A stretch of 7,931 nucleotides of DNA, taken from assembly GCA_009780545.1 (NCBI GenBank), contig WQZW01000057.1, positions 1 to 7,931 of the forward strand. Direction: 5' to 3'. The translations under genes and the position numbers were made by a program. The notes beneath the pieces were generated by a model. That model did not search any database and was not told where the DNA came from. It saw nothing but the letters and a program-made list of their open reading frames with translations. The stretch is from Treponema sp. GTDB taxonomy: Bacteria > Spirochaetota > Spirochaetia > Treponematales > Breznakiellaceae. This document shows positions 1-7,859 of this stretch, one piece after another (within the stretch, counting starts at the first letter, position 1; every line of letters starts with the position of its first letter).

Positions 1-806
1 ACGCTCTGGATTCCCTGGGCTATGTCCTCCTGCGAGACCCAGTAGAACAGGGAACCGGCGGATGCGTAGTCGTAATCTTCCCTTATCAGCTCCTTGGACG
101 AGTGAATGAAAGCCCTGTCCATTTGCAGGCTCAGGCCGTTCCCGCCGGGATCCTTCAGTTCGGCATTGCCGGCCATGATCACCCGGCGTTCCCCGTCCCC
201 GGTGCGGTCCAGGATGAGGATGTTGTTGATCGCGTTGTCGGTTACGTCCCCGGTAACGATGATCGTGTCCCTGAACCGCTTGACCGAGTTGGCCGCCAGT
301 TCCAGGGCCGGCGTGGACAGGAGGATGCGCCGGTACAGCCTCCGGTACTCCACTTGGCCGGCCGGCAACAGCACGTCGTTGGCAAAAAACGAAACCAGCG
401 TAACCAGGACGCCGACCGTAACCGCCGGAAGGAAAATGTTCCTGAAGGAAAGGCCGGAAGCCAGCATGATAAGTATTTCATTGTCGCTGGTCAGCCGACC
501 TATGGCGATCAGCATGCCGACAAGACAGGCGAAGGGGGCCGACAGCGAAATGATGCCGGGCAGGGCGAAAAGCAACAGCAGGGCAACCTGGCCCGCCGGA
601 ACGCGTTTGGTAAGGATGTCCTGTGCCATCAGGATGAGCTGGTTAAAAACGAAGATGACGAAGAAGAAGAGAAAGCAGGCGGAAAAGGTGAAAAGGGCCT
701 CTTTGAGGATATAGCGGTAGATGGTCGGGGACAGGGAACGGTGGCTTTCCATACCGGCCGCCGCCGCCCGATTCCGGCGGCCGAACCCGGAGAACAGGTT
801 TCTCAT
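1..806 (-). CDS. LptF/LptG (YjgP/YjgQ) family permease, 3' end outside window
   Basis: The reading frame is open from the ATG at 806 to the window edge, giving the first 268 residues. The start (stretch YILKEALFTFSACFLFFFV at about 30-50) and the segment LTSDNEILIMLASG at 105-118 are typical of LptF/LptG. Hydrophobic helices are visible at about 38-60, 74-102 and 124-144. After the third, the chain becomes hydrophilic (145 onward), consistent with the periplasmic beta-jellyroll domain. The remaining helices would lie beyond the window. In the family, two such subunits work with the ATPase LptB to lift lipopolysaccharide from the inner membrane. Some treponemes lack LPS yet keep such genes, so the substrate is open. 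ATG 806 overlaps the dut stop as ATGA, suggesting coupled translation. ATG 752 is an alternative start. LptF and LptG cannot be told apart here. Confidence 0.85.
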   Translation of the reverse strand, partial: MRNLFSGFGRRNRAAAAGMESHRSLSPTIYRYILKEALFTFSACFLFFFVIFVFNQLILMAQDILTKRVPAGQVALLLLFALPGIISLSAPFACLVGMLIAIGRLTSDNEILIMLASGLSFRNIFLPAVTVGVLVTLVSFFANDVLLPAGQVEYRRLYRRILLSTPALELAANSVKRFRDTIIVTGDVTDNAINNILILDRTGDGERRVIMAGNAELKDPGGNGLSLQMDRAFIHSSKELIREDYDYASAGSLFYWVSQEDIAQGIQS

Positions 807-1255
807 CCGGTGGACCCAAACCCGCCCGAGCCCCGGTCGGTGGGGGAAAGCTCCTCTTCGGCCACTTCTTGTATCTCCGCCCGGAACACCGGTACCAGGA
901 CAAGCTGGGCGATGCGGTCGCCGTTTTTGACGGTAAAAGTCTCCGGGCCGAGGTTGACCAGCAGCACGGCAACTTCCCCCCGGTAATCGCTGTCGATGGT
1001 ACCGGGCGTGTTCAGCACGGTGATTCCCCGAGAAAACGCAAGGCCGGAACGTGGCCTGACCTGCAGCTCGAAGCCCTCCGGTACCTGTACCTTCAGCCCG
1101 GTGGGAATCTTCGTCCGGGAGGAAGGCTCCAGGGTGAGATTCCCGTCCAGAAAGGCCCGCACGTCCAGTCCCGCGGCCCCCTCGGTCTCGTACTTCGGCA
1201 GGGAAACCCCCTCGTGCAGTCTGGATACTTTCAGCGTTATTATTGTTGTCCGCAT
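803..1255 (-). CDS. dut: dUTP diphosphatase (dUTPase), trimeric type
   Basis: This 150-residue protein hydrolyses dUTP to dUMP and pyrophosphate, keeping uracil out of DNA and supplying dUMP for thymidylate synthesis. All five motifs of the homotrimeric dUTPase family are present in order: AGLDVRAF; RPRSGLAFSRGI; GTIDSDYRGEVAV, with the aspartate and tyrosine of the uracil pocket; GDRIAQLVLVPV; and the glycine-rich C-terminal arm DRGSGGFGSTG that closes over the triphosphate. The length is normal for the family. I chose ATG 1255 because the fold begins at once (MRTTIITLKVSRL). An upstream in-frame ATG at 1447 would only add sequence that is the tail gene read in another frame. The gene starts 22 nt after the last Rpn-tail gene and overlaps the permease start by 4 nt, so it probably shares their transcript. 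Confidence 0.96.
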   Translation of the reverse strand: MRTTIITLKVSRLHEGVSLPKYETEGAAGLDVRAFLDGNLTLEPSSRTKIPTGLKVQVPEGFELQVRPRSGLAFSRGITVLNTPGTIDSDYRGEVAVLLVNLGPETFTVKNGDRIAQLVLVPVFRAEIQEVAEEELSPTDRGSGGFGSTG

Positions 1256-1277
1256 AGCCTTCGGGGGTTCCTCTTCA

Positions 1278-1469
1278 TCACGCACCGACCTGAAGGCCTG
1301 CAACGGTCTCCATGTCAAGGCCGGTGATCTCGCAGACCAGTTCCAAGGAAAGTCCTTTGGCAAGGGCATTTCGGGCCGTTTTCTCCACGCCGGCTTCCAG
1401 GCCAGCCTCCCTACCTTCCTCGTACCAGGCTTTCTGGGCATCCTCAAGGTTCCATTCGGTTAGCAGCAT
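1278..1469 (-). CDS. Free-standing Rpn C-terminal tail protein, copy C (putative RpnS-like antitoxin)
   Basis: This 63-residue protein has no nuclease domain. It is nearly the same as the last 68 residues of the Rpn protein encoded just upstream. It begins MLLTEWNLEDAQKAWYEEG, aligning with the internal methionine 225 of Rpn (MLLEEWKIEDAQEAWYEEG). Two tetrapeptide units follow (REAG, LEAG), then VEKTARNALAKGLSLEL and a C-terminal segment ending ITGLDMETVAGLQVGA. Its first part is closest to copy B and its second part to the Rpn gene's own tail. It starts 5 nt after the TAG of copy B; that stop is followed by a second in-frame TAG. Its ribosome site is weak (AGGTG about 11 nt upstream), so coupled translation is likely. 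By analogy with E. coli RpnS it may bind and inhibit the Rpn nuclease; this is inference. It could also be a decayed duplication. Confidence 0.7.
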   Translation of the reverse strand: MLLTEWNLEDAQKAWYEEGREAGLEAGVEKTARNALAKGLSLELVCEITGLDMETVAGLQVGA

Positions 1470-1474
1470 GGCTA

Positions 1475-1690
1475 CTACGCACCTGCCCGAAGGCCTGCAA
1501 CGGTTTCCATGTCGAGACCGGTTATCTTGCATATTACCTCAGGCGACAATCCTTCCATTAGAGCATTTCGGGCCGTTTCCCTTTTGATTTCCGCTAGGCC
1601 CATTTCCCTGCCCTCTTCCCTGCCAGCTTCCAGGCCTTCCTCGTACCAGGCTTCCTGGGCATCCTCAAGGTTCCATTCGGTTAACGGCAT
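1475..1690 (-). CDS. Free-standing Rpn C-terminal tail protein, copy B (putative RpnS-like antitoxin)
   Basis: This 71-residue protein corresponds to the Rpn tail alone and starts at the methionine equivalent to Rpn residue 225 (MPLTEWNLEDAQEAWYEEG). The tetrapeptide stretch is the longest of the three copies: LEAG, REEG, REMG and a degenerate LAEI. Then comes KRETARNALMEGLSPEV, and a C-terminal segment ending ITGLDMETVAGLRAGA. It is the most diverged copy in its second half, yet the frame is intact, which favours selection over decay. It begins 2 nt after the rpn stop codon (TAG-CT-ATG) with only a weak G-rich ribosome site (GGCGGGTG), so it probably depends on ribosomes finishing rpn. A role as an inhibitor or partner of the Rpn nuclease is inferred from family biology and position. 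Confidence 0.7.
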   Translation of the reverse strand: MPLTEWNLEDAQEAWYEEGLEAGREEGREMGLAEIKRETARNALMEGLSPEVICKITGLDMETVAGLRAGA

Positions 1691-1692
1691 AG

Positions 1693-1899
1693 CTACTGCA
1701 CACCCGCCTGAAGGCCCGCAACGGTCTCCATGTCAAGACCGGTGATCTCGCAAATGAGTTCCAAGGAAAGTCCTTTGGCAAGGGCATTTCGGGCTGTTTT
1801 CTCCACGCCAGCTTCCAGGCCTTCCTCCCTGCCCTTCTCTATGCCTTCCTCGTACCAGGCTTCCTGGGCATCCTCGATCTTCCATTCCTCGAGCAGCAT
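1693..1899 (-). CDS. Internal in-frame RpnS-like tail protein nested in rpn
   Basis: An in-frame ATG at 1899 (Rpn residue 225) lies 8 nt downstream of a perfect GGAGG inside the coding sequence. Initiation there would give a 68-residue protein made of the Rpn tail only (MLLEEWKIEDAQEAWYEEG to the stop). Two things support real use. The ribosome site is better than those of most genes in this window. The two free-standing tail genes downstream also start at exactly the equivalent methionine, as if the copied unit were this inner gene. In E. coli Rpn genes, a short product made this way dimerises and blocks the long nuclease. Here it would be the first of three tail proteins. Expression is not demonstrated. 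Confidence 0.65.
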   Translation of the reverse strand: MLLEEWKIEDAQEAWYEEGIEKGREEGLEAGVEKTARNALAKGLSLELICEITGLDMETVAGLQAGVQ

Positions 1900-2571
1900 A
1901 TTGATTACCTCCGTACCGTGCTTTTCCAAAAACTCCCGCAGAACATCGTTTTCCATGCAGTACCTTACGGCCGCCTCCATCGCTTCGTCAGGGGTCATCG
2001 TCTTGCCGTACTCCCTGAGTTTGGCTATGAGGAAGCTGTAATCGGCAAGCTCCTTGCATTTCGCCGCAAGGCCCAAATTGTGCCCTTCGTTGATATTGTA
2101 CACCTGAACCACCAGTTCGAGCGGAGGCCCGTCCCCGGTCAGGGTCCGAAGATCACCGGCATCCTTGAAGGCATCGGACAGCTTGAGTATCCTGTGGTCG
2201 GGATACGGTGCCTTGCCGTTATACAGGACGATAAAAATTGGATACGGAACTTTTTCAAGTGCCCGCTGGTAGATATTTCGGCGGTCTGCGATTTTTTCGT
2301 ATATCCGGCCGATGTACATAAGCAGGCGGAGCGGCATGTTGTGGTTGATGCCGGACTGATGTTCGATCAAAACAACCAGGCGATCGTCCACGGTGAAGGA
2401 GATGTCGTTGACGCGTCCCATGAAAAGGGCCGATCGGATGGTGTTGATGTCGATCGGGACGTCCGCCGGCAGGTCGATGCCCTGGATTGCGGAGTAAAGC
2501 CTGCGCAACGAGTCCGGGTTGCCGAAAAGCTGCGAAAATACGCTGTCCTTGTGCTTTACGTTTGCGCCCAT
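1693..2571 (-). CDS. rpn: Rpn-family recombination-promoting nuclease / putative transposase (PD-(D/E)XK)
   Basis: This 292-residue protein belongs to the Rpn (YhgA-like) family, often labelled putative transposase. Members are DNA endonucleases; E. coli Rpn proteins have been reported as toxic anti-phage effectors held in check by their own separately translated C-terminal tails. The N-terminal part opens with KHKDSVFSQLFGNPDSL. The nuclease core shows D56 in GRVNDISF, then VVLIEHQS with E70 and Q72, fitting the D...ExQ variant of PD-(D/E)XK. A helical middle (about 165-220) leads to a tail from residue 225 with glycine every fourth residue (IEKG, REEG, LEAG) and a C-terminal segment around ITGLDMETVAGL. 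ATG 2571 has GGGGAG 5 nt upstream. The gene lies behind the pnp terminator with its own promoter and is followed by two tail copies. Phage defence is inferred, not shown. Confidence 0.9.
   Translation of the reverse strand: MGANVKHKDSVFSQLFGNPDSLRRLYSAIQGIDLPADVPIDINTIRSALFMGRVNDISFTVDDRLVVLIEHQSGINHNMPLRLLMYIGRIYEKIADRRNIYQRALEKVPYPIFIVLYNGKAPYPDHRILKLSDAFKDAGDLRTLTGDGPPLELVVQVYNINEGHNLGLAAKCKELADYSFLIAKLREYGKTMTPDEAMEAAVRYCMENDVLREFLEKHGTEVINMLLEEWKIEDAQEAWYEEGIEKGREEGLEAGVEKTARNALAKGLSLELICEITGLDMETVAGLQAGVQ
1908..1912 (-). promoter_or_regulatory. Shine-Dalgarno site inside rpn for the internal start
   Basis: The minus strand reads GGAGG here, followed by 8 nt (TAATCAAT) and ATG 1899. It is encoded by the codons for T220-E221-V222 (ACG GAG GTA). 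Match and spacing are both close to ideal, making internal initiation plausible. Confidence 0.65.
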
Positions 2572-2589
2572 CGTGGCTCCCCTAGGTTT

Positions 2590-2618
2590 ATTTTAGGGTA
2601 TTCGCCACCGAAATTCAA
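2590..2618 (-). promoter_or_regulatory. Sigma-70-type promoter of the rpn cluster
   Basis: The minus strand has TTGAAT (2618-2613), a 17-nt spacer and TAAAAT (2595-2590). This is a 4/6 match to the -35 and a 5/6 match to the -10 consensus at ideal spacing. The expected transcript start, near 2583, leaves only about 12 nt of leader, almost all of it ribosome site (GGGGAG at 2582-2577). The -35 box lies just outside hairpin element E1. No other clear promoter appears before dut, so dut and the permease may depend on it. Confidence 0.6.
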
Positions 2619-2626
2619 GTAAAGTG

Positions 2627-2902
2627 AGCCAATCCGCGCGGCAGATTGGCTTCGGAGTTTTACTGCACCTCCCGCAGAGGCTACGGTAAAACTCCACGCC
2701 TGTTCCTGAAATCGTGTGGGGGGGCCAAGCCCCCCTTCGCTCCAGACTTGCTACCATTATGGCGTGGAGATTTGCGTAGCAAATCTCCTAAAGAATTGTG
2801 GAGTGCCTTCGGCACGTAGCAATTCTTCCGCTACCCCCCGAACGGGGCGCTGCCCCGTAACGCCCCGCATCCACGGCGTGGAGATTTGCCCCTCAAATCT
2901 CC
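2627..2902 (-). repeat. Modular hairpin element E1 (pnp-rpn intergenic region)
   Basis: This non-coding stretch is a chain of inverted repeats. In plus coordinates: 2627-2651 (AGCCAATC...GATTGGCT); 2654-2695 (10-bp arms GGAGTTTTAC/GTAAAACTCC with a smaller inner hairpin); 2719-2735 (GGGGGGC-CAA-GCCCCCC); 2766-2788 (GGAGATTTGC-GTA-GCAAATCTCC); 2791-2827 (AAGAATTG/CAATTCTT enclosing GTGCC-TTC-GGCAC); the GC block 2836-2867; and 2880-2902 (GGAGATTTG/CAAATCTCC). GGCGTGGAGATTTGC occurs twice (2761-2775, 2875-2889). Three blocks are shared with E2 in the same orientation: 2824-2868 (42 of 45 bases identical to 5661-5705), 2719-2745 (25 of 27 identical to 5605-5631) and 2629-2657. It may be a mobile palindromic element and/or an RNA processing or termination module. 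I do not recognise a named family. Confidence 0.8.
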
Positions 2903-2942
2903 GGAGTCCATCATCCGCAGAATGACGGACCACCCGCCAAGC

Positions 2943-2978
2943 AAAAAAGCGGTTCCGAGACCGTAGCCTCGAAACCGC
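2943..2978 (-). terminator. Rho-independent terminator of the rpsO-pnp transcript
   Basis: The minus strand has GCGGTTTCGAG, an 8-nt loop and CTCGGAACCGC (2978-2949), an 11-bp stem with one G-U pair, followed at once by six T (2948-2943). It lies 27 nt after the pnp stop codon. The wobble pairs only in minus-strand RNA, agreeing with the direction of pnp. Confidence 0.9.
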
Positions 2979-3005
2979 CGCCTTCAAATCCTCAACTGCC
3001 GGATC

Positions 3006-5213
3006 CTACCTCCGATCCCTGTCCCTGGGCGGCCGCCGATCTCCCCGTCCCCGATCCGGACCGCGATCCCGGTTGTAGCCGCCGCCGCTCGGGGCCGCAT
3101 CTTCCGCAGGTGCCCCGTCGGGGTCTATGGCGTCGATGTAGGAGAGGTTGAGCCTTCCCATCCGGTCGATCTCGGTCAGCTTGACCGGGATTTCCTGGCC
3201 TTCCTTCAGGACATCGGTAACCACGGAGATTCTCTGGCGGGAAAGTTTGCTGATGTGGACCAGACCTTCCTTGCCGGGCAGAATCTCGACAAAGGCCCCG
3301 AACTCCATGATCCGCTTTACCACGCCGTTGTAGATCCTGCCCGGTTCCGGGTCGGAAGCTATGCCCATGACGGCGATCTTCGCATCCTCGGCATCCTGGG
3401 AATTCTTGGCGAAGATCGTCACCGTGCCGTCGTCCTCGGTGTTGATCTTGACGCTGTACTGCTCGCACAAGGCCTTGATGTTCTTGCCGCCCGGCCCGAT
3501 CAGCGCCCCGATCCGGTCGATGTCGATGTGCATCGACAGTATTTTCGGCGCATACTCGCTGATCGCCTCCGCCGGTTTGCAGAGCGTGGCGTTCATAATG
3601 GAAAGAATGTGCAGTCTTCCCCGTTTTGCCTGGTCCAAGGCCCGCCGCATGATCTCGGTGGACACGCCGGCGATCTTGATGTCCATCTGGAAGCCGGTGA
3701 TCCCGTCCTCGGTTCCGGCCACCTTGAAGTCCATGTCTCCCAGGTGGTCTTCCTCGCCCAGGATGTCGGACAGCACCGCATAGCGGTCCCCGGCGCCGCC
3801 TTTGCCCTCGGTGATCAGCCCCATCGCGATGCCGGCAACCGGTTTCTTCATCGGCACGCCGGCGTGGAGCATGGCCAACGTTCCCCCGCAGACCGATGCC
3901 ATCGAGGACGAACCGTTGGACTCCATTATCTCGGAGACGACACGCACCGTGTAAGGGAAGATGTCCTTGCCGGGAACCATGGCCTCGAGGGAACGCCGGG
4001 CCAGATAGCCGTGCCCGATTTCCCGCCGGCCGGTTCCGGTCCTGCCGACCTCGCCCACCGAGTAGGGGGGGAAGTTGTAGTGCAGCATGAAGTTTTCCCG
4101 CCGGTCGCCTTCGATGTCGTCGAATATCTGTTCGTCGAAAACGGTCCCCAGGGTGGTTACCACCAGGGCCTGCGTTTCGCCGCGGGTAAAAAGGGCCGAA
4201 CCGTGGGTCCTGTCCAGGATTCCCACCTCGCAGGTGATGTTCCTGATATCCTCGGTTCCCCGGCCGTCAACCCGTTTGCCGTTGTCCAGAATCCCCGAGC
4301 GGAGAATCTCGTATTCCATCTCCTCGAACAGGGCGGCAAAGAGCTTCTTCTGGGTTTCGTCCTCAAGCCCGGCGGCGTACTTTGCGGCAAGTTCGGCCTT
4401 GACCGCCTTTGCCCCGTCATACCGCTCGAACTTGGTCGGCAGGAAGCAGGCGACCTGCAGTTTCGGGTACGCCTCGGCCCGGATGGCGGCGGCGTTTTCC
4501 AGCACATGGCTCGGTTCGGTCAGCGGCAGCTTGGGCTTGCCGGCCAGTTCCCGCAGCTTGTCCTGCAGGTCGCAGCATTCGATGATCACCGTGCGGGCCT
4601 TTTCCAGGGCCTCGATCATCAGGTCCTCGCTGACTTCCTTCGCCCCGCCTTCGACCATGGTGATCCCGTCCCGGGTTCCGGCAACGACGATCTCCAGGGT
4701 GGACTTTTCGATCTGTTTGAAGGTGGGATTGACCACCAGCTCGCCCTCGACCTGGCAGACCCGCACCCCGGCAATCGGGCCGTTGAAGGGAATGTCCGAG
4801 ATGTGGACGGCGGCGGAGGCCGCGATAATGGCAAGCATGTCAGGCGGATTGACCTGATCGGTGGAAAGCGTGGTGGGGATGAGTTGGATCTCCCGGCCGA
4901 AGCTCTTGTCGAAAAGGGGCCGCATCGGGCGGTCGATCAGCCGGCTCACCAGGATTTCCTTGTCCTTGGGCCTCGTCTCCCGCTTGATGAACCCGCCCGG
5001 TATCTTGCCGGCGGCGTAGTAGCGTTCGTTGTAGTCCACGGTGAGGGGAACGTAGTCCAGGCCCTCCACCGATTCCGCGGAGGAACAGACCGTGGCAAGC
5101 ACCGCCGTTCCGCCGTATCGGGCGAAAACCGCCCCGTTTGCCTGTTTGGCAATCCTGCCGGTCTCCAGGATGACTTCCTTGCCGGCGATTTGCAGGGTTG
5201 TTTGTTGCATCAT
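3006..5213 (-). CDS. pnp: Polynucleotide phosphorylase (PNPase)
   Basis: This 735-residue trimeric 3'-to-5' exoribonuclease releases nucleoside diphosphates using phosphate and works in RNA turnover. The domains are complete: first RNase PH domain (about 12-145), helical linker (about 150-300), second RNase PH domain (about 315-545), KH domain (about 555-615, GxxG loop IGPGGKNI at 572-579), S1 domain (about 623-692), and an Arg/Gly/Asp-rich tail (about 710-735) of low complexity. Signature stretches are FPPYSVGEVGRTGTGRREIG (381-400), SEIMESNGSSSMASVCGG (427-444), and DMDFKVAG with QMDIKI (493-514), which carry phosphate-binding and catalytic acidic residues of the second core. ATG 5213 overlaps the rpsO stop as TAATG; a second ATG follows directly. 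No separate ribosome site is obvious, so translation is probably coupled to rpsO. A terminator follows the gene. Confidence 0.98.
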   Translation of the reverse strand: MMQQTTLQIAGKEVILETGRIAKQANGAVFARYGGTAVLATVCSSAESVEGLDYVPLTVDYNERYYAAGKIPGGFIKRETRPKDKEILVSRLIDRPMRPLFDKSFGREIQLIPTTLSTDQVNPPDMLAIIAASAAVHISDIPFNGPIAGVRVCQVEGELVVNPTFKQIEKSTLEIVVAGTRDGITMVEGGAKEVSEDLMIEALEKARTVIIECCDLQDKLRELAGKPKLPLTEPSHVLENAAAIRAEAYPKLQVACFLPTKFERYDGAKAVKAELAAKYAAGLEDETQKKLFAALFEEMEYEILRSGILDNGKRVDGRGTEDIRNITCEVGILDRTHGSALFTRGETQALVVTTLGTVFDEQIFDDIEGDRRENFMLHYNFPPYSVGEVGRTGTGRREIGHGYLARRSLEAMVPGKDIFPYTVRVVSEIMESNGSSSMASVCGGTLAMLHAGVPMKKPVAGIAMGLITEGKGGAGDRYAVLSDILGEEDHLGDMDFKVAGTEDGITGFQMDIKIAGVSTEIMRRALDQAKRGRLHILSIMNATLCKPAEAISEYAPKILSMHIDIDRIGALIGPGGKNIKALCEQYSVKINTEDDGTVTIFAKNSQDAEDAKIAVMGIASDPEPGRIYNGVVKRIMEFGAFVEILPGKEGLVHISKLSRQRISVVTDVLKEGQEIPVKLTEIDRMGRLNLSYIDAIDPDGAPAEDAAPSGGGYNRDRGPDRGRGDRRPPRDRDRR

Positions 5214-5482
5214 TACTTGCGTAGGCCCAGTTCCTTGATGAGGGCGCGGTAGCCCTCGAGGTTGTAGTTCTGGAAGTACTTCATCAGCCGCTTCCGCTTG
5301 CCGACCAGCACCAAAAGGCTCCGCTGGCCGTGCTTGTCCTTTTTGAACGTCTTGCAGTGTTCGGTCAGTTCCCTGATCCGTTCGGTAAGCAGGGCGATCT
5401 GAACCTCCGAGGTTCCCGTGTCCTTCTCATCCTTGCCGAACTTGGCAATGATGGACGCAACTTTTTCTTTTTCCAAAGCCAT
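5213..5482 (-). CDS. rpsO: 30S ribosomal protein S15
   Basis: This 89-residue protein has the standard S15 length and sequence: GTSEVQIALLTERIRELTEH, then KDKHGQRSLLVLVGKRKRLM, which carries the conserved HGQRSL and KRKRL contacts to 16S rRNA, and LEGYRALIKELGLRK at the end. S15 binds the central domain of 16S rRNA early in small-subunit assembly. The start is fixed by GGAGG at 5493-5489, 6 nt before ATG 5482. A small hairpin (AATTG-TACC-CAATT on the minus strand, 5507-5494) sits directly ahead of the ribosome site and could affect translation. The gene is joined to pnp by a 1-nt stop/start overlap. This tight rpsO-pnp pairing is common in bacteria, but the gap that normally separates the two is missing. 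Confidence 0.98.
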   Translation of the reverse strand: MALEKEKVASIIAKFGKDEKDTGTSEVQIALLTERIRELTEHCKTFKKDKHGQRSLLVLVGKRKRLMKYFQNYNLEGYRALIKELGLRK

Positions 5483-5534: not shown

Positions 5535-5721
5535 TCTGCCACGGCAGATTGGATTCGGAGCTTTGCATAGCAAAGCTCCACCCGTTTACCCGATAAACTC
5601 ATGCGGGGGGCCGAGCCCCCCTTCACTCCAGCCAAAGGTTGTCGCAAGCGACAACCTCCGTCTTCCGTTACCCCCCGAGCGGGGCGCTGCCCCGCAACGC
5701 CCCGCCTTTACCGGCAAGGCG
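5529..5721 (-). repeat. Modular hairpin element E2 (ribF-rpsO intergenic region)
   Basis: This non-coding region has the same architecture and orientation as E1. In plus coordinates: a 12-bp hairpin 5529-5554 (ATCCAATCTGCC/GGCAGATTGGAT); a 10-bp hairpin 5557-5579 (GGAGCTTTGC-ATA-GCAAAGCTCC); a small GTTTA/TAAAC hairpin 5584-5598; GGGGGGC-CGA-GCCCCCC 5605-5621; a 10-bp hairpin 5636-5657 (AGGTTGTCGC/GCGACAACCT); a GC block 5661-5705; and CGCCTT/AAGGCG 5703-5721, which ends at the ribF stop codon. The GC blocks and the CCAATC hairpin are conserved with E1, while stems in the other slots differ. It separates ribF from rpsO-pnp and could stop, process or stabilise transcripts; no T-run follows any stem. 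Confidence 0.8.
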
Positions 5722-6315
5722 CTATGTTTTCCCGCCAACGTTGGTTTCCAGGCGACGGCCCAAAAGCCGTTCGGCTTCCTCGACACGGCCTTCGGCCAAT
5801 GCCCGGCGTATCCTGCTTGAGCTTATCGGCAACCCGCCGTCAAGAACCGGCGGCGAAACCCAGGTTTCGACCCCTTTCCGCCCGGCAAGCACGGCGATTT
5901 CGTCCGAACCGATGCCGGGCCGATGCCCGCAACGGAAGTCCTCGCCCAGGACCAGAAGCTTCGTCCTGGGGCCGCCAAGCAGAAGGTCGATAAAGTCCCT
6001 CCCCTCCATCATACCGAATCGTCCGGAAAAGTCAATCGGCACGGCAAGTTCGATGCCAAGATCGGCCAGGAGGGACATTTTCCGCTCATGGCCGAAGATG
6101 TCGCCGGGGAAGGTTTCCGGGGTCAGCGTCCTTGCCGGGTTTTCCTTGAAAGTGACGACCGTGGGAATGCAGCCGGCCTCGGCCAGGACGCGGCGGATGA
6201 GGGCGAGGTGCCCCAGGTGCAGGCCGTCGAAAACGCCCACGGTGATGGCCAGCGGGCGGGAATCTTCCATAATAGTGCGCCCGGCCACGAAGCGTTCCCA
6301 GTCAATCACGAGCAT
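5722..6315 (-). CDS. ribF: RibF-type FAD synthetase (FMN adenylyltransferase module only)
   Basis: This 197-residue protein matches the N-terminal nucleotidyltransferase half of bifunctional RibF, which transfers AMP from ATP to FMN to make FAD. Visible motifs are ITVGVFDGLHLGHLALI (HxGH-type nucleotide site HLGH), TFKENPAR, the segment LLVLGEDFRCGHR and ISSSRIRRALAEGRVEEAER. Bifunctional RibF is usually about 300 residues and carries a C-terminal riboflavin kinase domain. Here the chain stops at LLGRRLETNVGGKT, just where that domain should begin, and repeat element E2 starts at the next base. FMN would have to come from another kinase or from uptake. I chose ATG 6315, which has GGAGG 13 nt upstream and overlaps the truB end by 14 nt; ATG 6270 is possible but has a poorer fit. 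It was either naturally short or truncated by the element. Confidence 0.88.
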   Translation of the reverse strand: MLVIDWERFVAGRTIMEDSRPLAITVGVFDGLHLGHLALIRRVLAEAGCIPTVVTFKENPARTLTPETFPGDIFGHERKMSLLADLGIELAVPIDFSGRFGMMEGRDFIDLLLGGPRTKLLVLGEDFRCGHRPGIGSDEIAVLAGRKGVETWVSPPVLDGGLPISSSRIRRALAEGRVEEAERLLGRRLETNVGGKT

Positions 6316-7195
6316 AGACGTATCCGTACCTCCAGTTGCCGTTCGGGTCCTGCCGTTCCAGGACGGCAAGAAGATTGTTTTGGCAGAACAGGGCGGCGGC
6401 CGATTCCTCGGCCGGCAGGTTCAGGGGGGAAAGCCGGTCGAGTGGGCTGCCGGCGGCGACCTTCCTTGCGTCATCGGGCCCCAGTTCGATGCGGGGCATG
6501 CCCAGCCGGTCGAACAGGCCGGGCGAAACCGGCAGCAGTGAAGGGAAGCGGTCGCCGTCCTCGGGGGAAACGGCCTCTTCCAGGGAAAAGCCGGCAACGT
6601 GCGTCCTGCAAAGGGCGGCCAGCGAGGCACGGCTTCCGGCCGCCAGGGCGATGTCCCGAGCCAGCGAGCGTATGTAGGTTCCGCTTGAGCACCGGACGGA
6701 AATACCGGCCAGCGGCGGCTCCCAAAACCCGAGTTCCAGCGAGAAGATCTCCACTTCCCGGCCGTTCATTGCGGGACTTTCCCCCCGGCGTGCCAGGACC
6801 GAGGCCCGTTCCCCGCCGACATGGATCGCCGAGTATTCAGGCGGAACCTGGGTAATCTTCCCCCGAAAGCTTTCCAGGGCCGTTTCGACCGCCTGCCTTG
6901 TGGGAAGCGGCGCCTCGGCGACAGGCTTGCCCTCGGGATCCAGCGTGTCGGTTTCGATGCCGAAGCGGATCGTCCCTTCGTAACGTTTGTCGCAGCCGGT
7001 AAACCAGCGATTCAACTTCAGGGCCCGGCCGGTCAGCACCAACAGCAGCCCTTCGGCGAACTTGTCCAAGGTGCCGGTATGCCCCGCCTTGCCGGAACCG
7101 ATGCAGCGTTTGACCGCGGCAAGCGAGTCGAAGGAGGTGAGTCCGGCACTCTTGCGGAGGAGGATCAGGCCGGCAGGTGCGGGGGATTTGCTCAT
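6302..7195 (-). CDS. truB: tRNA pseudouridine(55) synthase TruB
   Basis: This 297-residue enzyme converts uridine 55 in the T-loop of tRNAs to pseudouridine. The start MSKSPAPAGLILLRKSAGLTS fits the TruB N-terminus (family pattern G-ll-DKPaGlTSf). The catalytic aspartate lies in GHTGTLDKFAEGLLLVLTG, where many TruB proteins have PLATG after GTLD. KRYEGTIRFGIETDTLDPEG, QVPPEYSAIHVGGERA and GISVRCSSGTYIRSLARDI follow as expected. The last 60 or so residues would be the divergent C-terminal RNA-binding part. ATG 7195 is preferred because the family start begins right there; upstream in-frame codons run through hairpin-rich DNA. The ribosome site is weak (AAGG 2 nt before ATG). A TATACT box just upstream (7208-7203) could give a nearly leaderless transcript, but its -35 is poor. 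The end overlaps ribF, indicating joint expression. Confidence 0.96.
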   Translation of the reverse strand: MSKSPAPAGLILLRKSAGLTSFDSLAAVKRCIGSGKAGHTGTLDKFAEGLLLVLTGRALKLNRWFTGCDKRYEGTIRFGIETDTLDPEGKPVAEAPLPTRQAVETALESFRGKITQVPPEYSAIHVGGERASVLARRGESPAMNGREVEIFSLELGFWEPPLAGISVRCSSGTYIRSLARDIALAAGSRASLAALCRTHVAGFSLEEAVSPEDGDRFPSLLPVSPGLFDRLGMPRIELGPDDARKVAAGSPLDRLSPLNLPAEESAAALFCQNNLLAVLERQDPNGNWRYGYVYARD

Positions 7196-7448: not shown

Positions 7449-7859
7449 TTATTGTTTGGTGTAGATATATTCTGGCAAAGACTTTCGATAAAGAGTTCTA
7501 CGGTCCGAAGAGAGATAATAAATAGTGGTAACTTCTCTGCCGCTTTCACCGAGACTCGCTTCTAACATAAATAATTTAAGCGTATATGATAATGGATATA
7601 AAGCACTATCTGCTTCATTGTTGATGCCACTTTCGGCGGATATTACCTTAAAAAGATACTTGTCGCCAAACAGGGTTTCACGTAAAGAATCAGGAGAAAA
7701 TATCCAGCTATTATCAATGTCTTTAACCCATGTACCAAGAAGTTCCTGCGGAACTATTCCCGTATACTCTTCCACATTGTTTTGGCAAGCGGTAACCGAA
7801 AATCCAATTGCCGCGACCACCGCGGCAAGCACCGTAACTTTGAGCGCGTTCCTTTTCAT
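7449..7859 (-). CDS. Small putative lipoprotein of unknown function
   Basis: This 136-residue protein has a signal peptide: basic start MKRN, hydrophobic run VTVLAAVVAAIGF, and lipobox VTAC with cysteine 25 as the likely lipidation site. The mature part is about 112 residues. It contains ELLGTWVKDIDNSWIF, a turn-strand pattern seen in small beta-barrel lipoproteins, then alternating strands with basic and tyrosine-rich residues up to the end YIYTKQ. I do not recognise a specific family. ATG 7859 has GGAGG (7869-7865) 5 nt upstream, a strong ribosome site. The mature-part codons are AT-rich (27-47% GC per 60-base line) against about 60% around it, while the signal-peptide codons are closer to the surroundings. 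This suggests recent acquisition or replacement of the mature part. It would be anchored to a membrane facing the periplasm or surface. Confidence 0.8.
   Translation of the reverse strand: MKRNALKVTVLAAVVAAIGFSVTACQNNVEEYTGIVPQELLGTWVKDIDNSWIFSPDSLRETLFGDKYLFKVISAESGINNEADSALYPLSYTLKLFMLEASLGESGREVTTIYYLSSDRRTLYRKSLPEYIYTKQ

Follow-up and report, generated by a model that had tools for sequence, protein, structure and literature searches.

What do further copies of an antitoxin gene do behind a toxin gene that already contains one? The question is raised by a locus in the window (i.e. the whole 7,931-nucleotide stretch of Treponema sp. DNA that was analysed), where a gene for an Rpn nuclease is followed on the same strand by two free-standing genes, t2 and t3, that are homologous to its C-terminal tail (Table 1). 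A sequence-only reading of this DNA had proposed that one toxin would be matched by up to three tail proteins, and that the extra copies might neutralise related Rpn nucleases from elsewhere. Stand-alone RpnS genes are already known for E. coli: the main text of a preprint (Zhong et al. 2023 preprint, PMC10327210) describes ypaA behind rpnE and a second rpnC_S behind rpnC, calls both second copies, with YpaA as the second copy of RpnE_S, and reports that YpaA protein is made. What is new here, as read from the translations, is the mismatch in repeat number between the free tails, which have 5 and 3 four-residue units, and the resident tail, which has 4. No mention of such a free-versus-resident mismatch was found in the literature searched, which included the main text of PMC10327210.

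Table 1. Positions in the window of the rpn gene, its inner start and the tail genes
Feature	Position	Strand	Description
rpn (RpnL)	1693..2571	-	292-aa ORF, ATG start; PD-(D/E)XK-type nuclease, Rpn/YhgA-like family, with C-terminal tail
GGAGG ribosome-binding site of inner start	1908..1912	-	8 nt 5' of ATG 1899
inner rpnS	1693..1899	-	68-aa tail from in-frame internal ATG; four 4-residue units
repeat helix, inner tail	1795..1842	-	16 residues; from translation
t2	1475..1690	-	free tail gene, 71 aa, ATG start; five 4-residue units
repeat helix, t2	1574..1633	-	20 residues; from translation
t3	1278..1469	-	free tail gene, 63 aa, ATG start; three 4-residue units
repeat helix, t3	1377..1412	-	12 residues; from translation

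The nuclease domain of rpn matched PF04754 at 26.7 bits, above the cutoff of 21; matches to TIGR01784 (43 bits, cutoff 52.1) and PF12784 (19.6 bits, cutoff 27.4) fell under their thresholds. A protein search with rpn returned 3115 homologues, the 119 listed best ones being 50-65% identical to it, and the informatively named homologues among the matches listed include Rpn family nucleases of Treponema. Five residues, N55, D56, E70, H71 and Q72, the putative catalytic residues of the Rpn nuclease, were invariant in 29 aligned relatives, as was the internal methionine homologous to ATG 1899. The in-frame ATG with GGAGG at 8-nt spacing to which the sequence-only reading had drawn attention is present in the window, and we used 110 unique related rpn genes, mostly from spirochaetes with some from other gut bacteria, to look at codon usage around it. 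GGAGG was found exactly 8 nt 5' of the inner ATG in 92 of these 110 genes. The glutamate four residues before the inner methionine was encoded by GAG in 105 of 105 cases, compared with 753 of the 1872 glutamate codons that these genes have elsewhere in their nuclease parts, and the serine or threonine codon preceding it ended in G in 80 of 86 cases, compared with 276 of 1817 elsewhere; because the 110 genes are akin, p-values overstate their independence, although the contrast is still very large. Since the protein is indifferent to these synonymous choices and the ribosome-binding site needs them, the codon usage of these relatives shows the inner start to be under selection at synonymous sites. 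An internal start is among the features that define RpnL/RpnS in E. coli (PMC10327210), and the nested layout that had been claimed by comparison with E. coli Rpn genes is borne out by this selection on the internal ribosome-binding site. On sequence grounds the identification of rpn as a putative RpnL/RpnS gene-within-gene toxin-antitoxin is therefore well supported.

The inner tail, t2 and t3 all begin at the homologous methionine, and the starts of t2 and t3 follow the preceding stop codons by 2 and 5 nt, respectively. The protein search placed t2 and t3 together on one 16,482-base contig. In pairwise BLASTP comparisons the inner tail was 83% identical to t3 (E ~1.7e-36) and 69% identical to t2 (E ~1e-31), while t2 and t3 were 68% identical to each other (E ~5e-30). 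The helix between WYEEG and ARNAL is 16, 20 and 12 residues long in the inner tail, t2 and t3, i.e. the copies differ from the resident tail by +1 and -1 unit, and t3 shares 21 of its 22 C-domain residues with the resident tail. In addition t3 is a mosaic, with a t2-like start and a remainder that resembles the inner tail (maximum chi-square permutation test, p = 4e-4). The earlier description of two intact tail copies that start at the same methionine, after gaps of 2 and 5 nt, thus holds, although they are not plain copies, given unit numbers of 4, 5 and 3 and the mosaic structure of t3. Two simpler accounts of t2 and t3 were rejected: chance open reading frames are ruled out by the BLASTP E values (1e-30 to 1e-36), and plain recent duplication is ruled out by identities of 69% and 83% together with 5 and 3 units versus 4.

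Synonymous change exceeded amino-acid change in all three comparisons among the tails (for t2 versus t3, pS was 0.44 and pN 0.16; Fisher p 2.7e-4). This substitution pattern shows that the free tails bear the mark of coding (purifying) selection, part of which may date from their toxin-attached past. Neither t2 nor t3 has GGAGG before its start, and their predicted pairing with the anti-Shine-Dalgarno sequence (-6.9 and -7.8 kcal/mol) is weaker than that of the inner start (-10.8 kcal/mol); the corresponding values for rpn and dut are -7.5 and -6.0 kcal/mol. Because the gaps are so short, t2 and t3 are likely to be translated by stop-start coupling. An alignment profile of the tails gave a weak match (E 0.048) to the crystal structure of RpnA_S (7th0). 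Separately, the C-terminal part of the profile gave five matches to a 'CAP REPEAT' chain in PDB 8vd6, at E 5.1e-15 and far above 7th0. PADLOC returned no match, and none of the 18 pattern matches obtained when viral contigs were scanned with the tail alignment was confirmed as a relative.

The significance of the unit numbers comes from experiments on E. coli RpnC. As reported in the main text of the preprint, RpnC_S with one added repeat no longer counteracts RpnC_L, and the reverse is also the case, i.e. RpnC_S blocks RpnC_L only when the repeat numbers are equal (PMC10327210); this same-repeat rule derives from a single E. coli protein, the sole system tested by experiment. Taken with this rule, 5 and 3 units against 4 suggest that the extra tails are probably not added doses of the resident antitoxin.

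A homology search for rpn followed by tail-only ORFs in other spirochaetes had been proposed as a check, and the same layout was found. In one genome scan an intact rpn had free tails directly behind it in at least 4 of 80 rpn loci, a lower bound because many of the 80 loci end at a contig edge. Further searches covered 195 genomes, 390 genomes and six genomes in full, with pairs taken from the matches listed and from fetched regions (tail matches fetched: 22/22 for G229, 20/20 for G244, 23/26 for G197 and 28/36 for G200). Among the matches listed, these searches gave at least 23 pairs of a free and a resident tail within 304 nt of each other, the window's two included and some of them sharing a genome or an orthologous locus, so that the pairs are partly non-independent. 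Helix length was equal in three of the 23 pairs (at L262, L279 and L304), and in those three the C-domain was of another class, with 9 to 11 of 22 residues identical; both features were equal in 0 of 23. Random pairings of free tails and rpn genes between four genomes agreed in length in 94 of 612 cases and in both features in 11 of 612. Adjacent pairs are thus no more alike than random ones, which indicates an absence of matching and not its avoidance. When free tails were compared with the Rpn toxins encoded in the same genome, 3 of 205 pairs matched, compared with the 11 of 612 between genomes, i.e. there was no enrichment and no target was found; this tally was made with single-anchor-type tails (43 rpn and 19 free) and took as rpn any tail preceded by an open frame of more than 80 aa, three of the 43 having frames of only 87-120. 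Among relatives that share one form of the C-domain, tail lengths differed in steps of four residues.

Some loci were treated individually. Pairs at L072 (1189 nt) and one at L262 (1226 nt) were left out because their gaps exceeded 1000 nt, and one at L022 (1442 nt) because it ran past the end of the searched stretch. A minimum length of 45 aa removed the second copy at both L225 and L232, as well as the copies at L246, L255, L258 and L298. L152, in which the nuclease frame is broken, and L088, in which the nuclease is cut by the contig end, were retained; L088 and L176 are one place and were counted once. Short-read assembly collapses identical tandem copies, and a mismatch could arise as an artefact in this way. 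Chromosome-sized contigs (G197, G200, G229 and G244) carry nine of the 23 pairs and the E. coli loci described below come from complete genomes, so that doubt on this point stays for the other 14.

Decay of the tail ORFs in related genomes had been named as a sign against functional tails, and here the evidence is divided. Truncated downstream copies occur in six related loci (L225, L232, L246, L255, L258 and L298, the homology being doubtful in the last two) and two broken downstream copies occur in L156; on the other side, the free tails of the 23 pairs are intact. Three further sets of loci differ from the pairs in the state of the nuclease gene. In L138, L139, L141, L143, L159 and L165 the nuclease frame is in pieces and the GGAGG site and the tail ORF that follows it are intact, a biased count because these loci were selected for short open frames. 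In L163, L167 and L151 the site and tail are present without an in-frame nuclease match, and L243 (G229; 2073-2899, minus-strand orientation) has a run of three tails that is not directly preceded by an intact rpn.

Mismatch is also found in E. coli. Among 12 sampled rpnE loci (L178 and L209-L219: MG1655 plus 11 taken from the 60 records listed among 5371 that matched, all from complete genomes and with nine different length pairs), the repeat numbers of rpnE and ypaA were equal in one (L214) and differed in 11, by one unit in MG1655. An independent draw from the observed lists of rpnE lengths would give half a match in 12, so that here too the mismatch is close to random expectation and reflects an absence of matching, not avoidance. 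For rpnC the resident and free copies had equal repeat numbers in 0 of 4 fetched loci, a set that leaves out L223, which is disrupted by an insertion sequence, and includes L224, whose free copy is annotated as start-less. RefSeq gives RpnE of E. coli K-12 as inactive and ypaA as a pseudogene, and the mismatch there could therefore reflect relaxed constraint.

Comparison of the tails indicated how such differences might arise. In 12 of 13 tail pairs similarity was higher over the first 18 codons than over the last 25, the exception being the window's inner tail versus t3, one of three window comparisons. Tails on chromosome-sized contigs appear to combine a start anchor with repeats in varying number and a C-domain from one of 13 classes. 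Three genomes (L249, L281 and L307) share, at 100% identity, a 146-151 nt block that extends from the last repeats over the C-domain and stop codon into the beginning of the next tail. Judged by flanks that are 88-90% identical, L281 and L307 are orthologous loci with differing arrays, and L251 and L266 (89-95%) are orthologous loci with differing tails. These sequence comparisons show that the tails recombine as modules, with recombination in the window's own tails directly indicated by the t3 mosaic only and the identical-block evidence coming from other loci. The sample of relatives comprises one genome per species, and no pair of states from before and after such an exchange was observed within a species.

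The rpn array itself sits between pnp and dut (window 803-5482). Among the 12 best pnp matches from 190 genomes searched, dut came directly after pnp in 10; in the other 2 lptFG came next and dut was not detected. Neither rpn nor a tail was detected at the pnp stretches of these 12 relatives. Since the array lies between pnp and dut here and was not found there in the relatives, it was probably inserted, which is consistent with the horizontal movement reported for rpn genes (PMC10327210). The end of t3 and dut are 22 nt apart, so that dut expression may by now rely on transcripts that run through the array. Elsewhere in the window there are GC-rich intergenic repeats upstream of rpn and rpsO (2761-2902, 2824-2868, 5552-5579 and 5661-5705), among them a 45-nt unit present twice, at 2824 and 5661, with 93% identity between the copies, and a hairpin-like 28-nt unit in three copies. 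Positions 5722-6318 encode a RibF-like protein (about 200 aa) whose matches to the usual RibF models are confined to their first part and lie under the cutoffs, and 7449-7859 is a 136-aa ORF with a signal-peptide-like, cysteine-containing start, lipoprotein-like by eye and without a Pfam or NCBIfam match.

The reading that we favour, at a probability of about one half, sees the free tails as displaced, non-cognate RpnS genes that would have formed in the manner of rhs tips and been kept because they neutralise matching Rpn toxins. A tail would have been duplicated, displaced and recombined, its conserved first 14-18 codons serving as the anchor, much as rhs C-termini are displaced. With unit numbers of 4, 5 and 3 the free tails are probably non-cognate to the adjacent toxin, and they would be kept by neutralising Rpn toxins with matching tails, which might be earlier versions of this toxin, or relatives in the genome or met by transfer. 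That the free tails act as RpnS, and on what, we infer by analogy. The earlier suggestion that the extra copies could neutralise other Rpn nucleases fits better than its companion, an effect on dosage. Because the antitoxin is the toxin's own C-terminus, both are re-keyed at once whenever the tail changes, and the previous antitoxin is left an orphan. A more tentative extension, against which the odds lean, is that the rpn loci of spirochaetes accumulate in this way inherited arrays of antitoxins that were once intragenic and are non-cognate: each recombination in the tail anchor would re-key the toxin together with its inner antitoxin, the old tail would stay downstream, with a start of its own, as an immunity gene against earlier or foreign versions, and unit number combined with C-domain class would form a specificity code.

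The main and serious rival, although we consider it unlikely, is that the tails are neutral or near-neutral leftovers without function, which were duplicated and displaced at the repeat-rich end of rpn, drift in unit number and are lost. The equality of the free/resident mismatch with random pairing is what such leftovers would give, and the truncated and broken copies at related loci, the ribosome-binding sites of t2 and t3, weaker than that of the inner start, and the annotation of RpnE and ypaA in K-12 point the same way. Less easily accommodated are the intact frames, indels in multiples of four codons and a pN well under pS between t2 and t3, as well as the intact free tails in the 23 pairs and the production of YpaA protein in E. 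coli (PMC10327210).

Two other accounts assign the copies a role at their own locus. The free tails could be further cognate antitoxin for the adjacent RpnL, made by coupled translation and raising the ratio of antitoxin to toxin, as would suit the shared operon order with gaps of 2 and 5 nt, the C-domain common to t3 and the resident tail, and the naming of YpaA as a second copy of RpnE_S (PMC10327210). This dosage claim is nevertheless disfavoured, and we regard it as quite improbable: the unit numbers are off by +1 and -1 where only equal repeat numbers block, and length and C-domain together agreed in none of the 23 pairs, with the E. coli loci giving one match for rpnE and none for rpnC. 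Alternatively, the free tails might be silent cassettes, i.e. a store of new tails for the toxin that is drawn on by recombination, so that their expression would be irrelevant. The mosaic t3, common anchors with differing C-domains and the identical block in three genomes would all be expected of such a store; recombination alone gives this pattern, however, without copies being kept for that purpose, and the copies have retained start, stop and coding selection, so that we judge this very improbable.

The preferred reading, displaced non-cognate antitoxins, would make tail re-keying a simple means by which immunity arrays could arise in an anti-phage system that works inside the cell. Free-standing RpnS genes have so far been called second copies, and the mismatch here and in E. 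coli poses the question of whether they provide more of the same dose or protection against other Rpn proteins. The closest known counterparts of the locus are E. coli rpnE-ypaA and rpnC with its second rpnC_S, which like the window have a nuclease gene with an internal start for a C-terminal antitoxin, tails with a varying number of four-residue repeats, a stand-alone tail homologue directly downstream on the same strand, and a repeat mismatch between free and resident tails; in contrast to E. coli, the free tails of the window number two, arranged in tandem, and each differs from the resident tail by one repeat. In the available account of rhs genes (Jackson et al. 2009, PMC2935791), the dissociated tips downstream have the core in common with the gene but not the tip, and they are said to be shunted to a position where they are silent. 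The rpn tails resemble them in that displaced C-termini lie downstream with a common anchor and diverge beyond it, and in that one tip or module recurs at different loci, whereas the displaced piece in rpn is of the antitoxin type, has its own start codon and about 65 codons, and differs mainly in repeat number and C-domain. The nearest functional parallel, as far as the source describes it, is provided by the T6SS loci, in which arrays of orphan immunity genes lie behind a toxin that they do not match and are presumed to give protection from other variants (Kirchberger et al. 2017, PMC5361080). T6SS effectors, however, are injected between cells and their immunity protein is encoded by a separate gene, whereas Rpn is intracellular and its antitoxin lies within the toxin gene.
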